This document shows positions 1 through 19,229 of a DNA stretch of 32,611 bases, piece after piece; position 1 is the first letter of the stretch; each line of letters begins with the position of its first letter. Under the pieces are notes generated by a model that ran no database searches, was not told the DNA's origin, and saw only the letters and a list, made by a program, of their open reading frames with translations. A program made the position numbers and the translations under genes. The DNA comes from Paracoccaceae bacterium (GTDB lineage: Bacteria > Pseudomonadota > Alphaproteobacteria > Rhodobacterales > Rhodobacteraceae), in NCBI GenBank assembly GCA_011523445.1, contig WTGT01000308.1, forward strand, positions 1 through 32,611, in the 5' to 3' direction.

Positions 1-837
1 GCTAAGGGGATATCTGTACCGATCATTGTTTTCCCAAAAGGGGACCGATTTGTTTGTATTGATGGGAATACACGATTAACAGTATATAATGACCTTATTG
101 ATGAAAAGGCACCAGGAGACTGGAATACGATAAACTGTCTTGTTCTTGAGAATCCTGAGCAGCGTGAAATAGAAACTATTAGAGTTACTGCCCACTTGGT
201 TGGTGCACGCGAATGGCCAGCTTACGAAAAGGCCCGTTACCTGCACCACCTTAGAAACGTTCAATTCTTAGACTATAACGAGCTTATCGCAATTTGTGGT
301 GGCAACAGGAAAATAATAGAACAGCAAATCGACGCATTTCATGATATGAACAAGTATTATAGAGATGTAAGCAGCGACGATGCCTTCCAAGTTGATAGAT
401 TTAGCGGCTTTGTTGAGTTGCAGAAAAAAAATATAAAGGATGCAATATTTAAGGCAGACCTTGATTTATACGACTTTGGAAAATGGATTCGCAATGGTCA
501 AATTTATAAACTCGCTGATGTCAGAAAATTACCTTCGGTATTGGCTGATGAAGAAGCAAAATACACATTTATAAATGGTGGTATCCGGTCAATTGAAGAT
601 GCCATCTCGATTGTTGAAGAAAATCGAAAGAAAGATACAAAGACACCAGTAGAAAAAACTACAGTAGCAAAAGCCAGTATGTCTTTATTGGCTCAAGCTT
701 TGCTTGAAAAGGTTAAGACTTTACCAAGAGAGGATTTTGTTGCATTGAGAGATAGGAATTATGAATCTGCTGAACAGGATATAGAACTGTTAAATGATTT
801 GACTGAGAACCTTCTTGATCTACTGCAGGATGTCTGA
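1..837 (+). CDS. ParB-like nuclease/ParB-Srx domain protein (5' truncated by window edge)
   Basis: Frame 1 is open from base 1 (AKGISVPIIVFPKGDRFVCIDGNTRLTVYNDL...AHLVGAREWPAYEKARYLHHL...) to TGA at 835-837. The 'DGNTRLTVY' element and following helix resemble ParB-like domains. The listed ORF start at 196 is internal. Confidence 0.75.
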   Translation, partial: AKGISVPIIVFPKGDRFVCIDGNTRLTVYNDLIDEKAPGDWNTINCLVLENPEQREIETIRVTAHLVGAREWPAYEKARYLHHLRNVQFLDYNELIAICGGNRKIIEQQIDAFHDMNKYYRDVSSDDAFQVDRFSGFVELQKKNIKDAIFKADLDLYDFGKWIRNGQIYKLADVRKLPSVLADEEAKYTFINGGIRSIEDAISIVEENRKKDTKTPVEKTTVAKASMSLLAQALLEKVKTLPREDFVALRDRNYESAEQDIELLNDLTENLLDLLQDV

Positions 838-1282
838 AAGTGCAGCCCACCGAAAATTGGTGGTTGAAACCTCGAATGCAATTAAACGTCTCTATTCGGG
901 AATACATGTTACGATAGATATTAGTGAAAAACCAGGTGATCCCGTACCCACAATAATTGGTGGCTATCGTCCAGACATAGTTGGAAGATGTACTGACCCA
1001 AGAATTCACCTCATTATTGCCGAGGCAAAGATAGGTGGTGATGTGAAACGTCATCATACTTTATGTCAGATAAATGCGTTTATAGGATATCTTGAGTCAA
1101 TGAAATCTGCTGATGGTACATTCATTTTGGCTGTTGAGGGGAATATTAGTGATTACTCAAGAACATTACTAAATCTGAATTACAGGCAAAGAGTTACGGA
1201 AAATATACATATCAAACTGTTTGATGGGCTGGACTTTTGGAGCCTAGGGTCATCTGGAGAAACAATATGGCGTTTATCCTAA
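830..1282 (+). CDS. PD-(D/E)XK superfamily nuclease-like protein
   Basis: ATG at 830 overlaps the upstream stop by 8 nt. Motif 'GYRPDIVG...HLIIAEAKIGGD...QINAFIGYLE' matches a PD-x(n)-ExK core followed by a Q-containing helix. Confidence 0.65.
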   Translation: MSESAAHRKLVVETSNAIKRLYSGIHVTIDISEKPGDPVPTIIGGYRPDIVGRCTDPRIHLIIAEAKIGGDVKRHHTLCQINAFIGYLESMKSADGTFILAVEGNISDYSRTLLNLNYRQRVTENIHIKLFDGLDFWSLGSSGETIWRLS

Positions 1283-2733
1283 GACGGCGACCTGCTCTTT
1301 CAACAAAGCATCAAGCATATGCTTATCAAGTTGATGCCATTCGGTTAGTCAAAGATCTTACCTATGCTGCAATCTTTCATGAACAAGGGCTTGGAAAAAC
1401 AAAAATTGCGATAGACCTTTCTCTATTATGGCTTGAGAATGATATCGTGGACACTGTGTTCATTGTCACAAAGAAGTCGCTAGTTGAAAATTGGAGAAAT
1501 GAAGTAAAAGGACACTCACATATTACTCCTCATATTTTATCAGGAAATAGAGCGCAAAACAGTACATCCCTGAATTCACCAGTACTTATATACATTACCA
1601 ATTATGAAACGATAGCGGCAAATGTAAAACTAATTAAATTATTTTTACAGACCTGTCGTGTTGGTTGTATTTTGGATGAAAGCCAAAAGATTAAAAATCC
1701 GGATGCTAACCTGACTAAGACATTTCACGAGATTGCATCGTTTTTCGATCGACGAATAATTATGACAGGTACCCCAGCTGCGAATCGGCCATATGATATC
1801 TGGGCCCAGATTAAGTTTCTTGATAATGGGGAATCTCTTGGGGGAAACTTTGATACGTTCAGGCAAGAAATGGATTTACCAAAAAACACTGGTAAATCAA
1901 ATGATTACATGAGACGTTTAACTACAATACACAAAAGAATTACACCGTTTACTGTTCGTGAAACCAAAGATACTGCTGGAATTCACTTACCTAATAAAAC
2001 TATTTTTAATCGCTATGTTAAGTTACCTAGTTGGCAGATGGACAGGTATGAAACATATCGGGACGAGTTAGCCTATGAATATAAAATAGAGGGTATTATC
2101 GAAACAGACAAAGTAGATAGCATTCTAAAAAGACTCTTGCGGTTGGTTCAATGTGCATCGAATCCAGGTCTCATTGACGGTAATTATTCACTTGAGCCAG
2201 CTAAATTACCAGTACTAATTGACATGTGCCGTGAGTTCACTAGTGTATCGAAAGTAATCGTTTGGACAGGATTTATAGAAAACGTTGAGTGGCTTTCCAA
2301 AAAACTAAAGGAATTCGACCCTGTGATCATTCATGGGAGCCTTCCTATGCAACATAGAAATGAGTCAGTAAGAAAGTTTATCAATGCGTCGAATCTTGTG
2401 CTTATAGCTACACCTGGTGCAGCAAAAGAGGGCCTAACACTAACAGTAGCAAATCATGCAATATTTTTTGACCGTAGCTTCAGCCTTGATGACTATCTCC
2501 AAGCTCAGGACCGTATACACCGAATATCCCAAACGAAGGATTGTTTTATACACAACTTGATTGCAAATGACACTATCGACGAGTGGGTAGATGTTTTGCT
2601 AACAGCTAAATACAGAGCAGCACAACTCGCTCAAGGGGATATTGATGCTTCAACTTTCAGGGACACCTTCCGTACAGATGTTTCTGAGGTTCTTCAAAGC
2701 GTTTTATTTCCGCAAGGGTCTAACGAACAATAA
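1267..2733 (+). CDS. SNF2-family DEAD/DEAH helicase-like ATPase
   Basis: Walker A-like 'HEQGLGKTKIAIDL', motif II 'ILDESQKIKN', motif III 'MTGTPAANRPYDIW', motif V/VI 'GAAKEGLTLTVANHAIFFDRSFSLDDYLQAQDRIHRISQTKD'. Likely start is ATG 1267, overlapping the upstream stop by 16 nt. Confidence 0.9.
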   Translation: MAFILRRRPALSTKHQAYAYQVDAIRLVKDLTYAAIFHEQGLGKTKIAIDLSLLWLENDIVDTVFIVTKKSLVENWRNEVKGHSHITPHILSGNRAQNSTSLNSPVLIYITNYETIAANVKLIKLFLQTCRVGCILDESQKIKNPDANLTKTFHEIASFFDRRIIMTGTPAANRPYDIWAQIKFLDNGESLGGNFDTFRQEMDLPKNTGKSNDYMRRLTTIHKRITPFTVRETKDTAGIHLPNKTIFNRYVKLPSWQMDRYETYRDELAYEYKIEGIIETDKVDSILKRLLRLVQCASNPGLIDGNYSLEPAKLPVLIDMCREFTSVSKVIVWTGFIENVEWLSKKLKEFDPVIIHGSLPMQHRNESVRKFINASNLVLIATPGAAKEGLTLTVANHAIFFDRSFSLDDYLQAQDRIHRISQTKDCFIHNLIANDTIDEWVDVLLTAKYRAAQLAQGDIDASTFRDTFRTDVSEVLQSVLFPQGSNEQ

Positions 2734-2761
2734 ATTTCCTGAATAACAAGGGTAAACCGAT

Positions 2762-3778
2762 ATGACCAATAATGTAAACACCATAGCTATATTGGGGGAG
2801 GATATATCCACAACTCAAGAGCAATTACCAATCGAAAAACTTAAATTTCTACCTGATAATCCGCGCGTATATGCAGTTATTCGGGAAATGGAGGATTTCG
2901 ACCAACTTACACCGGATGAGAAACAGATTCGAATTTACGATTGTCTACTCAATGAGCCAAGCGTTAAAAAACTAATACCTGAGATTAAAAGAGACCGTGG
3001 TCTACAAGAACCCATAATTGTTCGGTGGGACACTCAGGAAGTAATTGAAGGAAATTCTCGCCTAGCAGTCTATCGAAAGCTTAATTATGATGAACCTGAT
3101 AACGATGCATGGAAAGAAATTCGCTGCCAGGTCGTTACAAAACTCACCGATGATCAACAGACCCGAATTCTAGGTCAAATACATCTCCATGGTAAAACCG
3201 AATGGTCACCATACGCCAAGGCATTATATTGTTATCGTTGGGTAGTTGAGCAGGGTAAGAAGTCTGAAACTTTATCAAAGATAGCAGGTTTTTCAAAACA
3301 AGAAATAAATAAAAATGTTTCTATTATAGAACTCATGACTCAAAATAATGAATTCAATCATTCGAGATATAGTTATTACGATGTTCTGGTCCGTAATAGG
3401 ACGATATCTACTAAAATCAATGAAAATGGAGCTCTAAAAAAGGAAATTCTAACAAGGATTAAGACTGAAGAATTCACTGCTCAAGAATTACGTGATAAAT
3501 TGCCAACAATTATAAAAAAACCAAGAATTCTTAAAAAATTTCAAAATGGAGATGTCTTGTTAAATGAGGCGTTTGATCGTGCCAAGATTAGCGGAGCCGA
3601 ACGCAAACTTAAAAAAATTCGTCAAGACCTTGATGATATTGAAAAGGATGACATCATTTCACTGGAAAGGTCTGAAGCAAAAGCAATGAAATATGAAATT
3701 AGTAAAATCAGTAACAGGCTAAAAAGGGTCTCTGAAATGGTTGAAAAGTGTCTTCAAATTACTACCCCGTTTTCTTGA
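2762..3778 (+). CDS. ParB-like nuclease/ParB-Srx domain protein (second copy)
   Basis: 'GLQEPIIVRWDTQEVIEGNSRLAVYRKL' is a typical ParB-like core, followed by 'HLHGKTEWSPYAKALYCY' and an HTH-like 'LSKIAGFSKQEINKNVSII'. Confidence 0.8.
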   Translation: MTNNVNTIAILGEDISTTQEQLPIEKLKFLPDNPRVYAVIREMEDFDQLTPDEKQIRIYDCLLNEPSVKKLIPEIKRDRGLQEPIIVRWDTQEVIEGNSRLAVYRKLNYDEPDNDAWKEIRCQVVTKLTDDQQTRILGQIHLHGKTEWSPYAKALYCYRWVVEQGKKSETLSKIAGFSKQEINKNVSIIELMTQNNEFNHSRYSYYDVLVRNRTISTKINENGALKKEILTRIKTEEFTAQELRDKLPTIIKKPRILKKFQNGDVLLNEAFDRAKISGAERKLKKIRQDLDDIEKDDIISLERSEAKAMKYEISKISNRLKRVSEMVEKCLQITTPFS

Positions 3779-3793
3779 CCAATATATTTTACT

Positions 3794-5446
3794 ATGAAAA
3801 AGAAAAAAGTACTACTGATTGAACCTGGATATAGTAATAAATATCCTCCTCTGGGTCTAATGAAGCTAGCTTCATACCATAAAGCTCGTGGTGATTATGT
3901 AAAATTTTATAAAGTAGGATTCGACTGTAACATAGGAATTTCATCACTCGTCGAATCCGCATGGGACAGGGTCTATGTCACAACGCTTTTCAGTTTTGAA
4001 TGGAAGCGGACTGCAGAGGCAATAGATTTAGCAATACAGATTGCAGGGATGCAACAGGAGCGGGTTTTCGTTGGTGGAATCGCAGCTTCTCTAATGCACG
4101 ATGAGTACCAGAATGAACCTCGTTGGGCTGGAGTTCGTTTTATCAAGGGTCTCCTATTGGGTCCTCCAGCAATAGCTTTGAAACTTTCAAAAGAAGATTA
4201 CGAATTCGGATCAGATGACCTGAATGGACGTCCAATTGAAGAATGCATACCTGATTACGATATTCTATCAGACATCAATTACACTTACCCCGTACGAGAT
4301 GCTTATTTCGGATACGCATCAAGAGGGTGTGTCCGAAAATGTGCATTTTGTGGAGTTCCCAAGCTTGAAGGTCCACAGAGGGAAATGCCACCCTTGACCG
4401 ACCTCGTCAAAGGTGTTGATTCCGTGCATGGTGTCAAGAAGGACATGGTACTGATGGACAACAATATCACTGCCTCTGCCAGATACAAGGATGTAATTGC
4501 AGAACTTAGGGACTTGGGATTCGAATCAGGAGCTAAAATATCCCGTTCTAATGGTAGAAAAGAAAAAAGAAGAGTTGATTTCAACCAAGGAGTAGACGCA
4601 CGCATCCTTGCCAAATCACCAATGTATCTTAGGGAAATGTCTACAATTTGTATAAGTCCCCTGCGTATTGCATTTGATCATATAGGTGTACGGAAGGTCT
4701 ATGAAGTGGCAATCAGAATGGCAGCAGACAACGATATTACGTCATTGTCTAATTATATGCTTTACAATTTTATGGACTCCCCAAGTGACCTGTACGAACG
4801 GATGCGTCTAAATATCTCCCTTAACGAGGAATTGAGTATCAGAATCTGGTCGTTTCCGATGCGGTATCAACCTGTGACCTTGAAGGAAAGAACCCATATA
4901 GGAAAGTTCTGGAATCGCTATTATTTAAGATCGTTTCAGATCATGCTTCAGGCAACCCATGGTGTGGTAAGCGGCAACCCATCATTCTTCATGAGGGCAT
5001 ACGGGGAAAACAAATATGAATTTGAAAATCTTCTCAGCATGCCCCATGCATTTATTTTCCATCGGGACCATTACGAATTTGGGGATGGCAGACCAGTTCT
5101 AGAAGAATATTTTGAGTATCGGAATAAATTGTCTGAAAGCCAAGAAAAGGAAATGATTAGTCACTTAGCAGGGCCGGATATCGCAATTCCTAGGATTCCC
5201 AGGAACCACTTTGCAGAGTTGATAGGTGACGGAACCATAGACAAAACCATACGCAATGTCTTAAGGTTTCATACACTTGACACAAGGCATCGCTTAGATT
5301 CAAAGGAGACGAATACTCTACCTGAATTTTCGCACATTAACCCAGACATGGTAATGCCTAACGAGGATGAACATGTGGAAGATGCTGGCCTGTACGATGT
5401 TGATGCAACACAACAAGAAAAAGGTGACCAACTTGTCAGCGTTTAA
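3794..5446 (+). CDS. Radical SAM protein with B12-binding-like N-terminal domain
   Basis: CX3CX2C motif in 'YASRGCVRKCAFCGVPK'; N-terminal 'VLLIEPGYSNKYPPLGLMKLASYHKARGDYVKFY...VFVGGIAASL' Rossmann-like segment; 'VDFNQGVDARIL' typical of such enzymes. Confidence 0.88.
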   Translation: MKKKKVLLIEPGYSNKYPPLGLMKLASYHKARGDYVKFYKVGFDCNIGISSLVESAWDRVYVTTLFSFEWKRTAEAIDLAIQIAGMQQERVFVGGIAASLMHDEYQNEPRWAGVRFIKGLLLGPPAIALKLSKEDYEFGSDDLNGRPIEECIPDYDILSDINYTYPVRDAYFGYASRGCVRKCAFCGVPKLEGPQREMPPLTDLVKGVDSVHGVKKDMVLMDNNITASARYKDVIAELRDLGFESGAKISRSNGRKEKRRVDFNQGVDARILAKSPMYLREMSTICISPLRIAFDHIGVRKVYEVAIRMAADNDITSLSNYMLYNFMDSPSDLYERMRLNISLNEELSIRIWSFPMRYQPVTLKERTHIGKFWNRYYLRSFQIMLQATHGVVSGNPSFFMRAYGENKYEFENLLSMPHAFIFHRDHYEFGDGRPVLEEYFEYRNKLSESQEKEMISHLAGPDIAIPRIPRNHFAELIGDGTIDKTIRNVLRFHTLDTRHRLDSKETNTLPEFSHINPDMVMPNEDEHVEDAGLYDVDATQQEKGDQLVSV

Positions 5447-5466
5447 GACTATACCAAGGAGCTGCA

Positions 5467-6942
5467 ATGAAAAAAAAGACTGAACCAGAGTCTCTAGTGG
5501 GGGCAGATATTCTGAATCTTGTTACAACCGGTATGTATCATACTCCACTTGCAGTATATCGTGAATATATTCAGAATTCTGCAGATGCCATTGAGCGATC
5601 AAGATGGCCAGATCAAGGGAGAGTTGATATCTCAATTAGTTCAGGTAAGAGAATTGTAAAAATCAGGGACAATGGTCCTGGGCTCTCACCTTCTCTAGCA
5701 AAAAGGAATCTGATACCAATCGCAAGGAGCTCAAAAAAACAGGGGGTAGATCGTGGATTTAGAGGGATTGGACGACTTTCAGGGCTAGCTTTCGCTGACA
5801 GAATCAAATTCAGGACTAGGAGTAATAAATCACAGCCTGTAACAGAAATCTCCTGGGATGGAAAATCTCTTCGTGCCAATACAGATTCATATATGAGTCC
5901 TGAACAGATCATCAATAATTGCGTAAAGATTTCGAAAATAGAGGGTTGTGATTGGCCCGATAATTTTTTCGAAGTAATAATTGAAGATGTATCCCGATAT
6001 GCAGCTGACAAAATACTTAACCGTGAGGCGGTTCGGAGATATATCGGAGAGATTGGGCCAGTACCCATGTCAGAATCTTATCCATTTTCAAAGGAAGTAG
6101 AGGCGATTGTTTCAAACGAAAAAAAAATGCTAACACTGGAAGTGATTCTGGATGATGAAGAGCCAATCCGACGCATGCATGAATCTGAACTTATATTTTC
6201 TCAACATCGAAAGGATACATATAAGGAAATACAACAATTGAAAATTCCAGCTATCGACGGTGAAAATTACGCTGCGGTAGGATGGATCGCACATACTTCT
6301 TATCTAGGTGCTGTTCCTAAAAGTCTCGGAGTACGAGGAATCCGACTAAGATCAGGAAATATTCAAATTGGTGATGAAGATGTACTTGATCCATTTTTTA
6401 AGGAAGAGCGTTTCAACAGATGGTGCGTTGGTGAATTGCATATCATTGATGAACGAATTAATCCAAATGGCCGCAGGGATTATTTCGACCCCAGCCCACA
6501 CCTAAGACATATAGAAAATCACATCCAATCTATCATTAATGGAGTTGTGAAAAGATGTAGAACAGCTTCATCAAATCGGGTTCAGTCTAGGAAGGTAATA
6601 ACGGTATTGGAACACATGGATAGCGCATATAGTCTTGCAGGGTCAGGATATCTGAAAGCTGTAGATTCGAAAGCTCTCATAGCTGAAGCACTTCTGAGGG
6701 TTAAAGAACTTGAACACGATTTAAGCGAAGATAACCTAAATTGTCATCAAGAAAAAACTAAACTTATTGAACTTAAGAAAAAGCTGAATGGGTTCAAACC
6801 AAAAAGAGGCCGTCCCCATCTTGAAAACATAAGTAGTGGAGAAGTTGCAACTTATCAGAGAGTATTTAGAGCACTTACAGAGCTATGCAATTCACCTGCC
6901 ATGGCAAAGGAGATGATTGAGGGGGTATTAAAATCCGCATAA
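5467..6942 (+). CDS. GHKL/Bergerat-fold ATPase (Hsp90/MORC-like ATP-binding protein)
   Basis: N box 'YREYIQNSADAIE', G1 'KIRDNGPGLS', G2 'RGFRGIGRLSGLAFAD'; C-terminal coiled-coil-like segment and 'KRGRP'. Confidence 0.9.
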   Translation: MKKKTEPESLVGADILNLVTTGMYHTPLAVYREYIQNSADAIERSRWPDQGRVDISISSGKRIVKIRDNGPGLSPSLAKRNLIPIARSSKKQGVDRGFRGIGRLSGLAFADRIKFRTRSNKSQPVTEISWDGKSLRANTDSYMSPEQIINNCVKISKIEGCDWPDNFFEVIIEDVSRYAADKILNREAVRRYIGEIGPVPMSESYPFSKEVEAIVSNEKKMLTLEVILDDEEPIRRMHESELIFSQHRKDTYKEIQQLKIPAIDGENYAAVGWIAHTSYLGAVPKSLGVRGIRLRSGNIQIGDEDVLDPFFKEERFNRWCVGELHIIDERINPNGRRDYFDPSPHLRHIENHIQSIINGVVKRCRTASSNRVQSRKVITVLEHMDSAYSLAGSGYLKAVDSKALIAEALLRVKELEHDLSEDNLNCHQEKTKLIELKKKLNGFKPKRGRPHLENISSGEVATYQRVFRALTELCNSPAMAKEMIEGVLKSA

Positions 6943-7134
6943 TATAAACTGTAGCAAAATTTGGTTCTGAAGGGTTTAGGCAAAATTAATATTTAACTAC
7001 TAAACCCAGTTCGTGGTGTAAATTTAGCATCAATTTTCCGAAAACATTTTTAGTGGGGCAAAACCTATAATTGTTTCGTTTTACGGATAATTGATTCCTG
7101 GTGTTGATGGTATTTGGAGTTGATTGGAGTAATT

Positions 7135-17475: not shown

Positions 17476-18079
17476 GCTAGATTCCAAAGTGTTGGTGATA
17501 GCCACGCATAACAAGGATAAACTGAGTGAATTCGAAGGGATATTACACCCACATGGGGTGAAAACAAGATTTGCCGGAGACTTCAATTTGGAATTTCCAC
17601 CCGAAACCGAAGAGACCTTTGTAGGTAATGCCAGGATCAAGGCTCATTTTGTCGCTCGAGAAACACAACTTCCTGCAATTGCAGACGATAGCGGGATAAT
17701 GGTATCAGATCTTGATAACCAACCAGGGGTTAAGACTGCCGATTGGGCTGAAACACCTGATGGAAGGGATTACAAGAAAGCCATGACCAAAGTTTGGAAA
17801 TTGCTTGAGGAAAAACAGTCTCCCCTGCCCAGAAAGGCGAAATTCTGCTCGACAATCTGTGTTGCTTGGCCCGACGGCCATGATGAAATTTTCGAAGGTT
17901 TTGTCAATGGACAAATTGTCTGGCCGATGCGAGGGGAAATCGGCTTCGGATTTGACCCCATATTCATGCCCGATGGATACAAGATTACATTTGGGGAAAT
18001 GTACAAGGCGGACAAGAACCTTATCAGTCACAGGGCATTGTCACTTAAAGCTTTTGCTGAAAACTGTCTTGATGCCTGA
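17468..18079 (+). CDS. rdgB: RdgB/HAM1 family non-canonical purine NTP pyrophosphatase
   Basis: 'VLVIATHNKDKLSEFEGIL', 'TFVGNARIKAHFVARETQLPAIADDSGI', 'GFGFDPIFMPDGYKITFGEM...KNLISHRALSLK'. ATG at 17468 overlaps the rph stop. Confidence 0.95.
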   Translation: MRKLDSKVLVIATHNKDKLSEFEGILHPHGVKTRFAGDFNLEFPPETEETFVGNARIKAHFVARETQLPAIADDSGIMVSDLDNQPGVKTADWAETPDGRDYKKAMTKVWKLLEEKQSPLPRKAKFCSTICVAWPDGHDEIFEGFVNGQIVWPMRGEIGFGFDPIFMPDGYKITFGEMYKADKNLISHRALSLKAFAENCLDA

Positions 18080-19229
18080 TCAGCAAACAATAGAACCATT
18101 CGGAATCTATATCCATTGGCCATTTTGTGAGTCCCTGTGTCCCTATTGCGATTTCAATACCTATTGCTCAAACCAGATTGATCATGAGCAATGGTGTGAA
18201 GCCTATTTACGGCAACTTGATCATTCTGCAAAAGAATTGACTGCCAGCCAATGTACATCAGTTTATTTTGGTGGAGGTACTCCCAGCCTCATGGAGTCTC
18301 GAACAGTTGGTAAAATTTTGGATAGAATCTCCCTGCATTGGGGATTTTCCGGCCAGCCGGAAATTACACTTGAGGCCAACCCCACCACTGTCGAACAAGA
18401 TAGATTCTTGTGTTTCCGGAATGAAGGAATAAACAGACTGTCGTTGGGATTGCAGGCACTCAAAGACTCGGACTTGAAAGCCCTAGGTAGGAAACATGGC
18501 GTCAAGGAAGCAATCAAGGCCTACGAAACAGCTGATCGGGTTTTTAACAACATCAGTCTTGATTTCATGTTTGGCCGGCAATTTCAATCGACAGAATCAT
18601 GGATAGGAGAACTTCAGGAAATCGTAGCGTTGAATCCAAACCACCTTTCGATTTATCAACTGACCATCGAGCCCAATACACCCTTCGGCAAAAGACATGC
18701 TGCCAACCGACTGGAAGGTATACCCGATGAAGATACCCTTGCCGATATGTATCTTGCCACAATGGAAATTTGTGAACGGTATGGGTTCAAACAATATGAA
18801 GTTTCAAATTACTCCAAACCCGGTTACAAGGGAAAACACAATCTGGTTTACTGGGAGTATCATGACTTCTTGGGCATAGGGCCAGGTGCCCATGGAAGAA
18901 TAAGTATCGACAACCAATACTTTCGAACAAATACAATCCTTAATCCAGAAAGTTGGCTTGATGGTATTTTTAAATTAGGAACAGGTGAATACCAAAGAGA
19001 ATTAATCAATCAAAAGGAAAGAGGTTCCGAGTATTTGCTTACGTCTCTCCGACTCAATGATGGTATGAATACTGCCAGGTTTGAGCGAATTTCAGGAAGC
19101 AAACTAGACAGTAATACAATAAGCGAACTTGTTCAGGACAATTTGGTCGAAATTACCGATGGGCAACTTCAAGTTACCACCAATGGAAGAATGGTCCTAA
19201 ATCAGATCATTTCCAAGTTATTATCCTGA
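18072..19229 (+). CDS. hemW: HemW-like radical SAM protein (coproporphyrinogen III oxidase-like, heme chaperone)
   Basis: 'GIYIHWPFCESLCPYCDFNTYC' and 'TSVYFGGGTPSLM'. ATG at 18072 overlaps the rdgB stop; rph-rdgB-hemW order. Confidence 0.95.
   Translation: MPDQQTIEPFGIYIHWPFCESLCPYCDFNTYCSNQIDHEQWCEAYLRQLDHSAKELTASQCTSVYFGGGTPSLMESRTVGKILDRISLHWGFSGQPEITLEANPTTVEQDRFLCFRNEGINRLSLGLQALKDSDLKALGRKHGVKEAIKAYETADRVFNNISLDFMFGRQFQSTESWIGELQEIVALNPNHLSIYQLTIEPNTPFGKRHAANRLEGIPDEDTLADMYLATMEICERYGFKQYEVSNYSKPGYKGKHNLVYWEYHDFLGIGPGAHGRISIDNQYFRTNTILNPESWLDGIFKLGTGEYQRELINQKERGSEYLLTSLRLNDGMNTARFERISGSKLDSNTISELVQDNLVEITDGQLQVTTNGRMVLNQIISKLLS

Follow-up and report, generated by a model that had tools for sequence, protein, structure and literature searches.

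The window, that is, the whole analysed stretch of 32,611 nucleotides from a Paracoccaceae bacterium (contig WTGT01000308.1), begins with an operon of six genes. They encode, in order, a ParB-like protein whose gene is cut (ParB1), a 150-aa protein, an SNF2 helicase, a second ParB-like protein (ParB2), a radical SAM protein (rSAM) and a GHKL ATPase (Table 1). The initial annotation had placed the radical SAM gene inside a nuclease/helicase operon with no methyltransferase visible. Both points were borne out: the gene shares the operon with an SNF2 helicase, a PD-(D/E)xK protein, two ParB-like proteins and the ATPase, and no methyltransferase was found in the operon with Pfam and NCBIfam profiles.

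Table 1. Features of the operon and its insertion in the window
Feature	Position	Strand	Remarks
Inserted island	1..7107		Conserved chromosome resumes near 7107
ParB1, ParB/Srx-like, DGNTR motif	1..837	+	278 of about 342 residues, 5' end cut by contig edge
Small PD-(D/E)xK nuclease-like protein, 150 aa	830..1282	+	Overlaps ParB1 stop
SNF2-family helicase/translocase	1267..2733	+	ATG at 1267; ORF opens at TTG 1237
ParB2, second ParB-like protein, EGNSR motif	2762..3778	+	TIGR00180 weak
Radical SAM protein (rSAM)	3794..5446	+	550 aa, ATG at 3794; B12-binding-like N-terminus, CX3CX2C
HSP90/TRAP1-like GHKL ATPase, 491 aa	5467..6942	+	N and middle domains and own helical C-terminus

ParB1 is 35-37% identical to the product of the first gene in plasmid cassettes, and a complete copy of it is present in a genome of the same genus (L015:6013-7038; L015 is contig C8 of genome G001). 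ParB2 shows 29-32% identity to the ParB proteins of the cassettes. In an alignment of 34 sequences of the 150-aa protein, the residues P49 D50 ... E66 A67 K68 ... D72 ... Q81 are invariant. As the pattern PD ... EAK ... D ... Q is the signature of PD-(D/E)xK nucleases, the protein was called nuclease-like; sequence search gave no credible relative of solved structure. The helicase was recognised by Pfam (PF00176, 2.9e-30; PF00271, 1.4e-15), matched the helicase region of ZorD and DpdE in PADLOC and is 37-52% identical to the plasmid copies. The helicase gene of the closest relative (L108, G001:C8 99017-100471) is read through one TAA stop, and the C-terminus of its product may be truncated.

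In L015 the complete operon is situated between a betaine ABC-transporter gene and an arginase gene. The same two genes are adjacent, with no operon between them, in three further genomes of the genus (G005, G006 and G008), and in G008 about 80 bp separate the matched flanks. The operon has therefore been inserted, as a segment of roughly 7 kb in the window and about 7.4 kb in L015. Its G+C content is 39.4%, whereas the remainder of the window has 44.4%; the chromosomal neighbours there are ordinary housekeeping genes. A second radical SAM gene, of the ordinary HemN/HemW type, is located at 17805-19229 and adjoins genes for RNase PH and a Ham1-type pyrophosphatase.

The radical SAM protein and its HSP90-like partner

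The product of the radical SAM gene is a member of the radical SAM superfamily. Its cluster motif, C179-x3-C183-x2-C186, lies in 'RGCVRKCAFCGVPK'. Residue conservation analysis across 71 aligned homologues confirmed the CX3CX2C motif that had been read from the sequence: its three cysteines are invariant and every other cysteine is variable. The N-terminal segment EPGYxNKYPPLGLMK ... FVGGIAAS is almost invariant in the same alignment, and the whole active-site region is strongly conserved. The match to PF04055 (Radical_SAM) stayed below the cut-off (E=0.0019) and that to PF02310 (B12-binding) was weak (E=0.036, 14.4 bits, cut-off 32.1). In NCBIfam, the models of RimO, the 'ladder' B12-rSAM and PhpK gave no more than 15-19 bits, RimO reaching 19 bits where its cut-off is 357. 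Thus no curated cut-off was reached in Pfam or NCBIfam and no named family could be assigned. The uncharacterised phage radical SAM family phrog_9298 matches residues 5-377 with E=2.9e-38. Its members, of about 300 aa and found in phages and plasmids, are distant homologues, but they are shorter and lack the C-terminal extension, which in rSAM is helical and about 170 aa long; the annotated phage records that were viewed name no GHKL partner.

The AlphaFold2 model of rSAM (pLDDT 87.7, pTM 0.87) found its best solved-structure matches in MiaB, TsrM, OxsB, CysS and RimO at 11-15% identity, with E-values to radical SAM structures down to 1e-10, and also matched a corrinoid-binding protein weakly. 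The structural comparison with B12-radical SAM families proposed in the initial annotation was thereby run, and TsrM, OxsB and CysS were among the nearest folds. The description 'radical SAM with a B12-binding-like N-terminus' is right as a statement of fold, the predicted fold being nearest to MiaB, TsrM and OxsB, and cobalamin may be bound. The DxHxxG motif, already noted as absent from the window protein, occurs in none of the 71 homologues. To our knowledge TsrM and OxsB are likewise not DxHxxG proteins, so its absence alone does not exclude cobalamin.

All five of these enzymes share with rSAM a Rossmann-like N-domain and a radical SAM core; rSAM differs from them in its low identity, in its place in an operon of DNA enzymes and in lacking the cysteines for a second cluster. 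A methylthiotransferase of the MiaB/RimO type was ruled out, as no N-terminal cysteine for a second 4Fe-4S cluster is conserved. A closely homologous tRNA-modifying or cofactor enzyme with a non-defence context was also sought, and none was found. A housekeeping role of this kind was rejected, since no curated model scored close to its cut-off and the gene lies in a mobile nuclease operon.

The ATPase is related to HSP90 (PF13589, 4.9e-07 in Pfam; HtpG, 5e-13 in a profile search), and its AlphaFold2 model (pLDDT 88.8) matched TRAP1 in Foldseek with 1e-16. Its gene lies directly downstream of the rSAM gene on the same strand in 89 of 91 loci, and the other two loci stop at a contig edge. The two genes usually overlap (median distance -4 bp), and their distance matrices are strongly correlated (Mantel r=0.91), compared with 0.21-0.65 between rSAM and the other parts. 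Comparison of the loci shows rSAM and the HSP90-like ATPase as an obligate, co-evolving pair. No S-, deazaguanine- or methyl-donor partner was found conserved with this core.

Distribution and exchangeable modules

Relatives of rSAM were found at 150 or more genome loci in one scan, the best 80 showing 52-86% identity. They belong to Pseudomonadota, Acidobacteriota, Chloroflexota, Nitrospirota, Gemmatimonadota, Verrucomicrobiota, Actinomycetota and candidate phyla, although many loci come from MAGs and single taxon labels may be wrong. Since full-length relatives at this identity span many phyla, the reading frame is not a chance one. The gene is rare: in a sample of 399 genomes from across the phylum, 3 contained it, its own genome counted. 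Twelve of 72,556 plasmids carry a full-length rSAM at about 54% identity. Several of these are conjugative plasmids of Rhizobiales and sphingomonads, and some copies lie close to replication or integrase genes. Cultured carriers are represented by plasmid pNL1 of Novosphingobium aromaticivorans (DSM 12444) and by plasmids of Rhizobium and Mesorhizobium; carriers include Mesorhizobium sp. NZP2077 and Rhizobium sophoriradicis CC511.

Eight IMG/VR contigs hold close relatives of rSAM when queried with the alignment; scanning of viral contigs with single-sequence queries gave no match. Marinitoga camini virus 1, a phage of a deep-sea thermophile, possesses a 360-aa radical SAM gene beside HerA and NurA relatives (L006, 11998-15824), the same trio as in module V of the bacterial system described below. 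A gut sequence deposited as a bacteriophage, MT836743.1 (L005, 454-6727), shows NurA, HerA, GHKL and rSAM genes in a row followed by an AlbA/HTH-like gene; this DNA is possibly bacterial or of a mobile element rather than phage. The association of rSAM with HerA and NurA recurs at 28-42% identity, far beyond the main family. Among phages and plasmids, small radical SAM proteins of the same superfamily (L124, L125, L011 and L012) are encoded in several records near DNA methylases and PAPS-reductase-like genes, neighbours that give only a hint.

Around the rSAM-ATPase core, six modules were distinguished. Module I, the version of the window, comprises ParB1, the PD-(D/E)xK protein, the SNF2 helicase and ParB2. 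Module II is a short, DpdB-like DGQHR protein (TIGR03187, 2e-41) and module III a long DGQHR protein whose N-terminal segment is REase-like, with D...EC rather than a full PD-(D/E)xK motif conserved there. Module IV combines PIN_8 with a second GHKL protein, and module V a NurA-like and a HerA-like protein with a second GHKL. The name NurA-like was given from a weak Pfam match (E=0.038), the conserved pairing with the HerA-like ATPase and the annotation of the pair in Marinitoga camini virus 1. In module VI, a variant, the HerA-like ATPase is most similar to DndH. In its two loci (L080, 4307-8234; L087, 13174-17172), this ATPase, a GHKL and a 281-aa protein are encoded on the opposite strand adjoining the core.

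On a quick rSAM tree of 92 rows, in which some module absences are contig edges, module changes number at least 26 for the helicase, 13 each for the long DGQHR and the PIN modules and 5 for HerA-NurA. Pairs of rSAM with 87-90% identity carry different modules (L051/L048, L069/L070 and L096/L066). With a mean identity of 62%, rSAM is the slowest-evolving part, against 30-56% for the others (GHKL 38%, helicase 50%, nuclease 30%). The comparison shows that the nuclease and motor modules around the core are interchangeable.

The modules were also looked for away from the core. When five plasmid parts were searched separately (helicase, 7; GHKL, 12; DGQHR, 12; ParB1, 6; second GHKL, 12), none of them was found among the 72,556 plasmids outside the 12 rSAM-bearing records. 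The helicase was never found without rSAM in genomes either, where the matches were few, so that the plasmids provide the better test. In these searches, the nearest relatives of the modules were not found without the core. Seven cores have no recognised module: four are cut by contig edges (L016, L041, L061 and L102), two have other GHKL genes alongside (L032 and L093) and L095 alone looks bare. On the Roseomonas mucosa plasmid p2-AD3 (L004), the second GHKL is located about 90 kb from the core, and modules may act from such a distance. The operon is a real and apparently undescribed multi-gene system; no description of a system centred on such an rSAM was found in the literature searched, which consisted mostly of open-access papers outside bioRxiv.

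Comparison with known defence systems

The flanking genes of the loci were compared with PADLOC models. Roughly a dozen of 86 flanking genes matched, a raw count given without a background rate, and the matches include Lamassu LmuB, PD-T7-1, PD-T7-5, DRT, Dsr1 and candidate PDC families. In the Mesorhizobium copy, CBASS-like genes are found nearby. Large GHKL proteins matching Tiamat (TmtA) are encoded directly after the core operon in two loci (L016, 4185-7583; L025, 13456-16869).

The system resembles Dpd, in which the DGQHR protein DpdB and the SNF2 helicase DpdE occur on genomic islands together with nucleases and a modifying enzyme. However, the window operon has neither DpdA/TGT nor the PLD nuclease, and the rSAM-HSP90 pair would fill the modifying slot. 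A DGQHR gene, present in many relatives, is also missing from the window version and from the complete version in L015. Dpd was ruled out, as no TGT domain was predicted among the window genes and no DpdB-type protein in the operon. Similarity to Dnd/Ssp is seen in the DGQHR/DndB-family proteins of many relatives, in the DndH-like HerA ATPase of the module VI loci and in the presumed uncoupling of modification from several restriction modules. Here, in contrast, DndA, DndC, DndD and DndE are missing and the core is a true radical SAM protein; phosphorothioation was ruled out because DndC, DndD and DndE are unmatched in the operon in Pfam, PADLOC and NCBIfam.

Zorya and DISARM share a related SNF2 helicase region (ZorD, DrmD), but their other defining genes are missing and the window helicase lacks long extra domains. 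Zorya was ruled out by a partial match to the ZorD helicase domain of 82.6 bits against an equivalog cut-off of 1500 and by the lack of any ZorA or ZorB match. DISARM (DrmA, DrmB, DrmC and a methylase) was ruled out since its match is confined to part of the DrmD helicase. Prokaryotic viperins also combine a radical SAM enzyme with a defence-type setting, but rSAM differs in its B12-binding-like N-terminus and in its obligate pairing with an HSP90-like ATPase. The early impression that the protein is not viperin-like held, and viperin identity was ruled out, as no PADLOC family matched rSAM. Because the defining parts of each known system were looked for and found absent, the system was filed under none of them.

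Possible mechanisms and their meaning

We infer both that the system serves defence, from its neighbours, its mobility and its presence or absence between genomes, and how it works. A constant enzyme with swapped nuclease partners suggests a target common to all the partners. Since DNA motors and nucleases are common to the modules, DNA would be the most economical choice. It is also favoured because the DGQHR/DndB proteins and SNF2 helicases otherwise belong to the DNA-modifying Dnd and Dpd systems (PMC11888242; PMC10853773). With DNA as this substrate, the favoured model is a mobile and modular defence of the modification-restriction type, in which the rSAM-ATPase pair would make a mark and the exchangeable modules would police it. 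We hold this model tentatively, at somewhat under an even chance. That the mark is a new epigenetic one on host DNA, formed by B12-type radical SAM chemistry with the obligate HSP90-like ATPase and read by unrelated plug-in nuclease modules (SNF2/PD-(D/E)xK, DGQHR, PIN/GHKL and HerA-NurA), is doubtful.

According to the favoured model, rSAM, with the ATPase as clamp or chaperone, would perform SAM radical chemistry, possibly with cobalamin, on cellular DNA and leave one invariant chemical mark. ParB- or DGQHR-type NTPases would read the state of the DNA, SNF2 or HerA motors would travel along it, and PD-(D/E)xK, NurA, PIN or REase-DGQHR nucleases would cut DNA which is unmarked or wrongly marked. 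In the window, ParB1, the PD-(D/E)xK protein, the SNF2 helicase and ParB2 would form the reader and cutter. High conservation of rSAM would be expected if the enzyme had a single unvarying substrate while its readers diversify. The self-mark proposed in the initial annotation stands as the best single explanation, and its substrate, 'a DNA base or nucleotide', is what we continue to infer. Much of the comparative evidence would agree as well with a signal arming the nucleases or with a modified protein or RNA.

DNA-modification genes are often found alone, and effector-free cores of this system are nearly absent; the core may therefore instead be an activator. In such a case, infection would lead rSAM and the ATPase to produce a small molecule or modify a protein which switches on the nuclease module present, so that DNA would be destroyed abortively or in a targeted way, with no standing mark on it. 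HSP90-like ATPases usually act on protein clients, and this habit, together with the absence of a conserved S-, deazaguanine- or methyl-donor partner, counts against a DNA mark. The core and effectors also seem to require each other: orphan cores are very rare, and among the plasmids no effector was found orphaned. Swappable effectors resemble signal-driven systems such as CBASS. However, the effectors here have no obvious common ligand-binding domain, most are DNA enzymes, and DGQHR proteins, typical of DNA-modification systems, are repeatedly found among the partners. We consider the sensor or activator role unlikely, though it deserves attention.

Modification of RNA or protein (tRNA, the ribosome or a component such as the HSP90-like partner), by which the host would be protected from the nucleases of the system or the nucleases matured, is improbable. 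The nearest folds include MiaB and RimO, which modify RNA and ribosomal protein, and PIN domains are often RNases, but rSAM lacks the N-terminal cysteines that hold the second cluster in methylthiotransferases, and most modules are DNA motors or nucleases (SNF2, HerA, NurA, PD-(D/E)xK). Viperin, a radical SAM defence enzyme acting on CTP, offers a precedent for direct attack on the DNA or nucleotides of the invader with the nucleases cleaning up, and strong conservation across the rSAM active-site region would suit such chemistry. This is quite improbable, as rSAM has no PADLOC viperin match, its domain make-up differs and the obligate nuclease modules are left unexplained. A non-defence function in mobile elements using radical SAM, such as plasmid maintenance, DNA repair or transfer, is suggested by the conjugative plasmids, the occasional nearness of replication or integrase genes and the ParB-like parts, but is very improbable given the chromosomal copies in many phyla, the window insertion without replication genes and the known defence genes among the neighbours.

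We know of no restriction-type defence system with a radical SAM enzyme as its conserved core, and none was found in the literature. Should the core prove to mark DNA, radical SAM chemistry would take its place beside methylation, phosphorothioation and deazaguanine insertion among the ways of self-marking. As several carriers are cultured, this chemistry is open to testing at once. If the mark is true, the swapping of whole nuclease modules around a constant pair would offer a natural experiment in the recognition of a shared mark by restriction modules.
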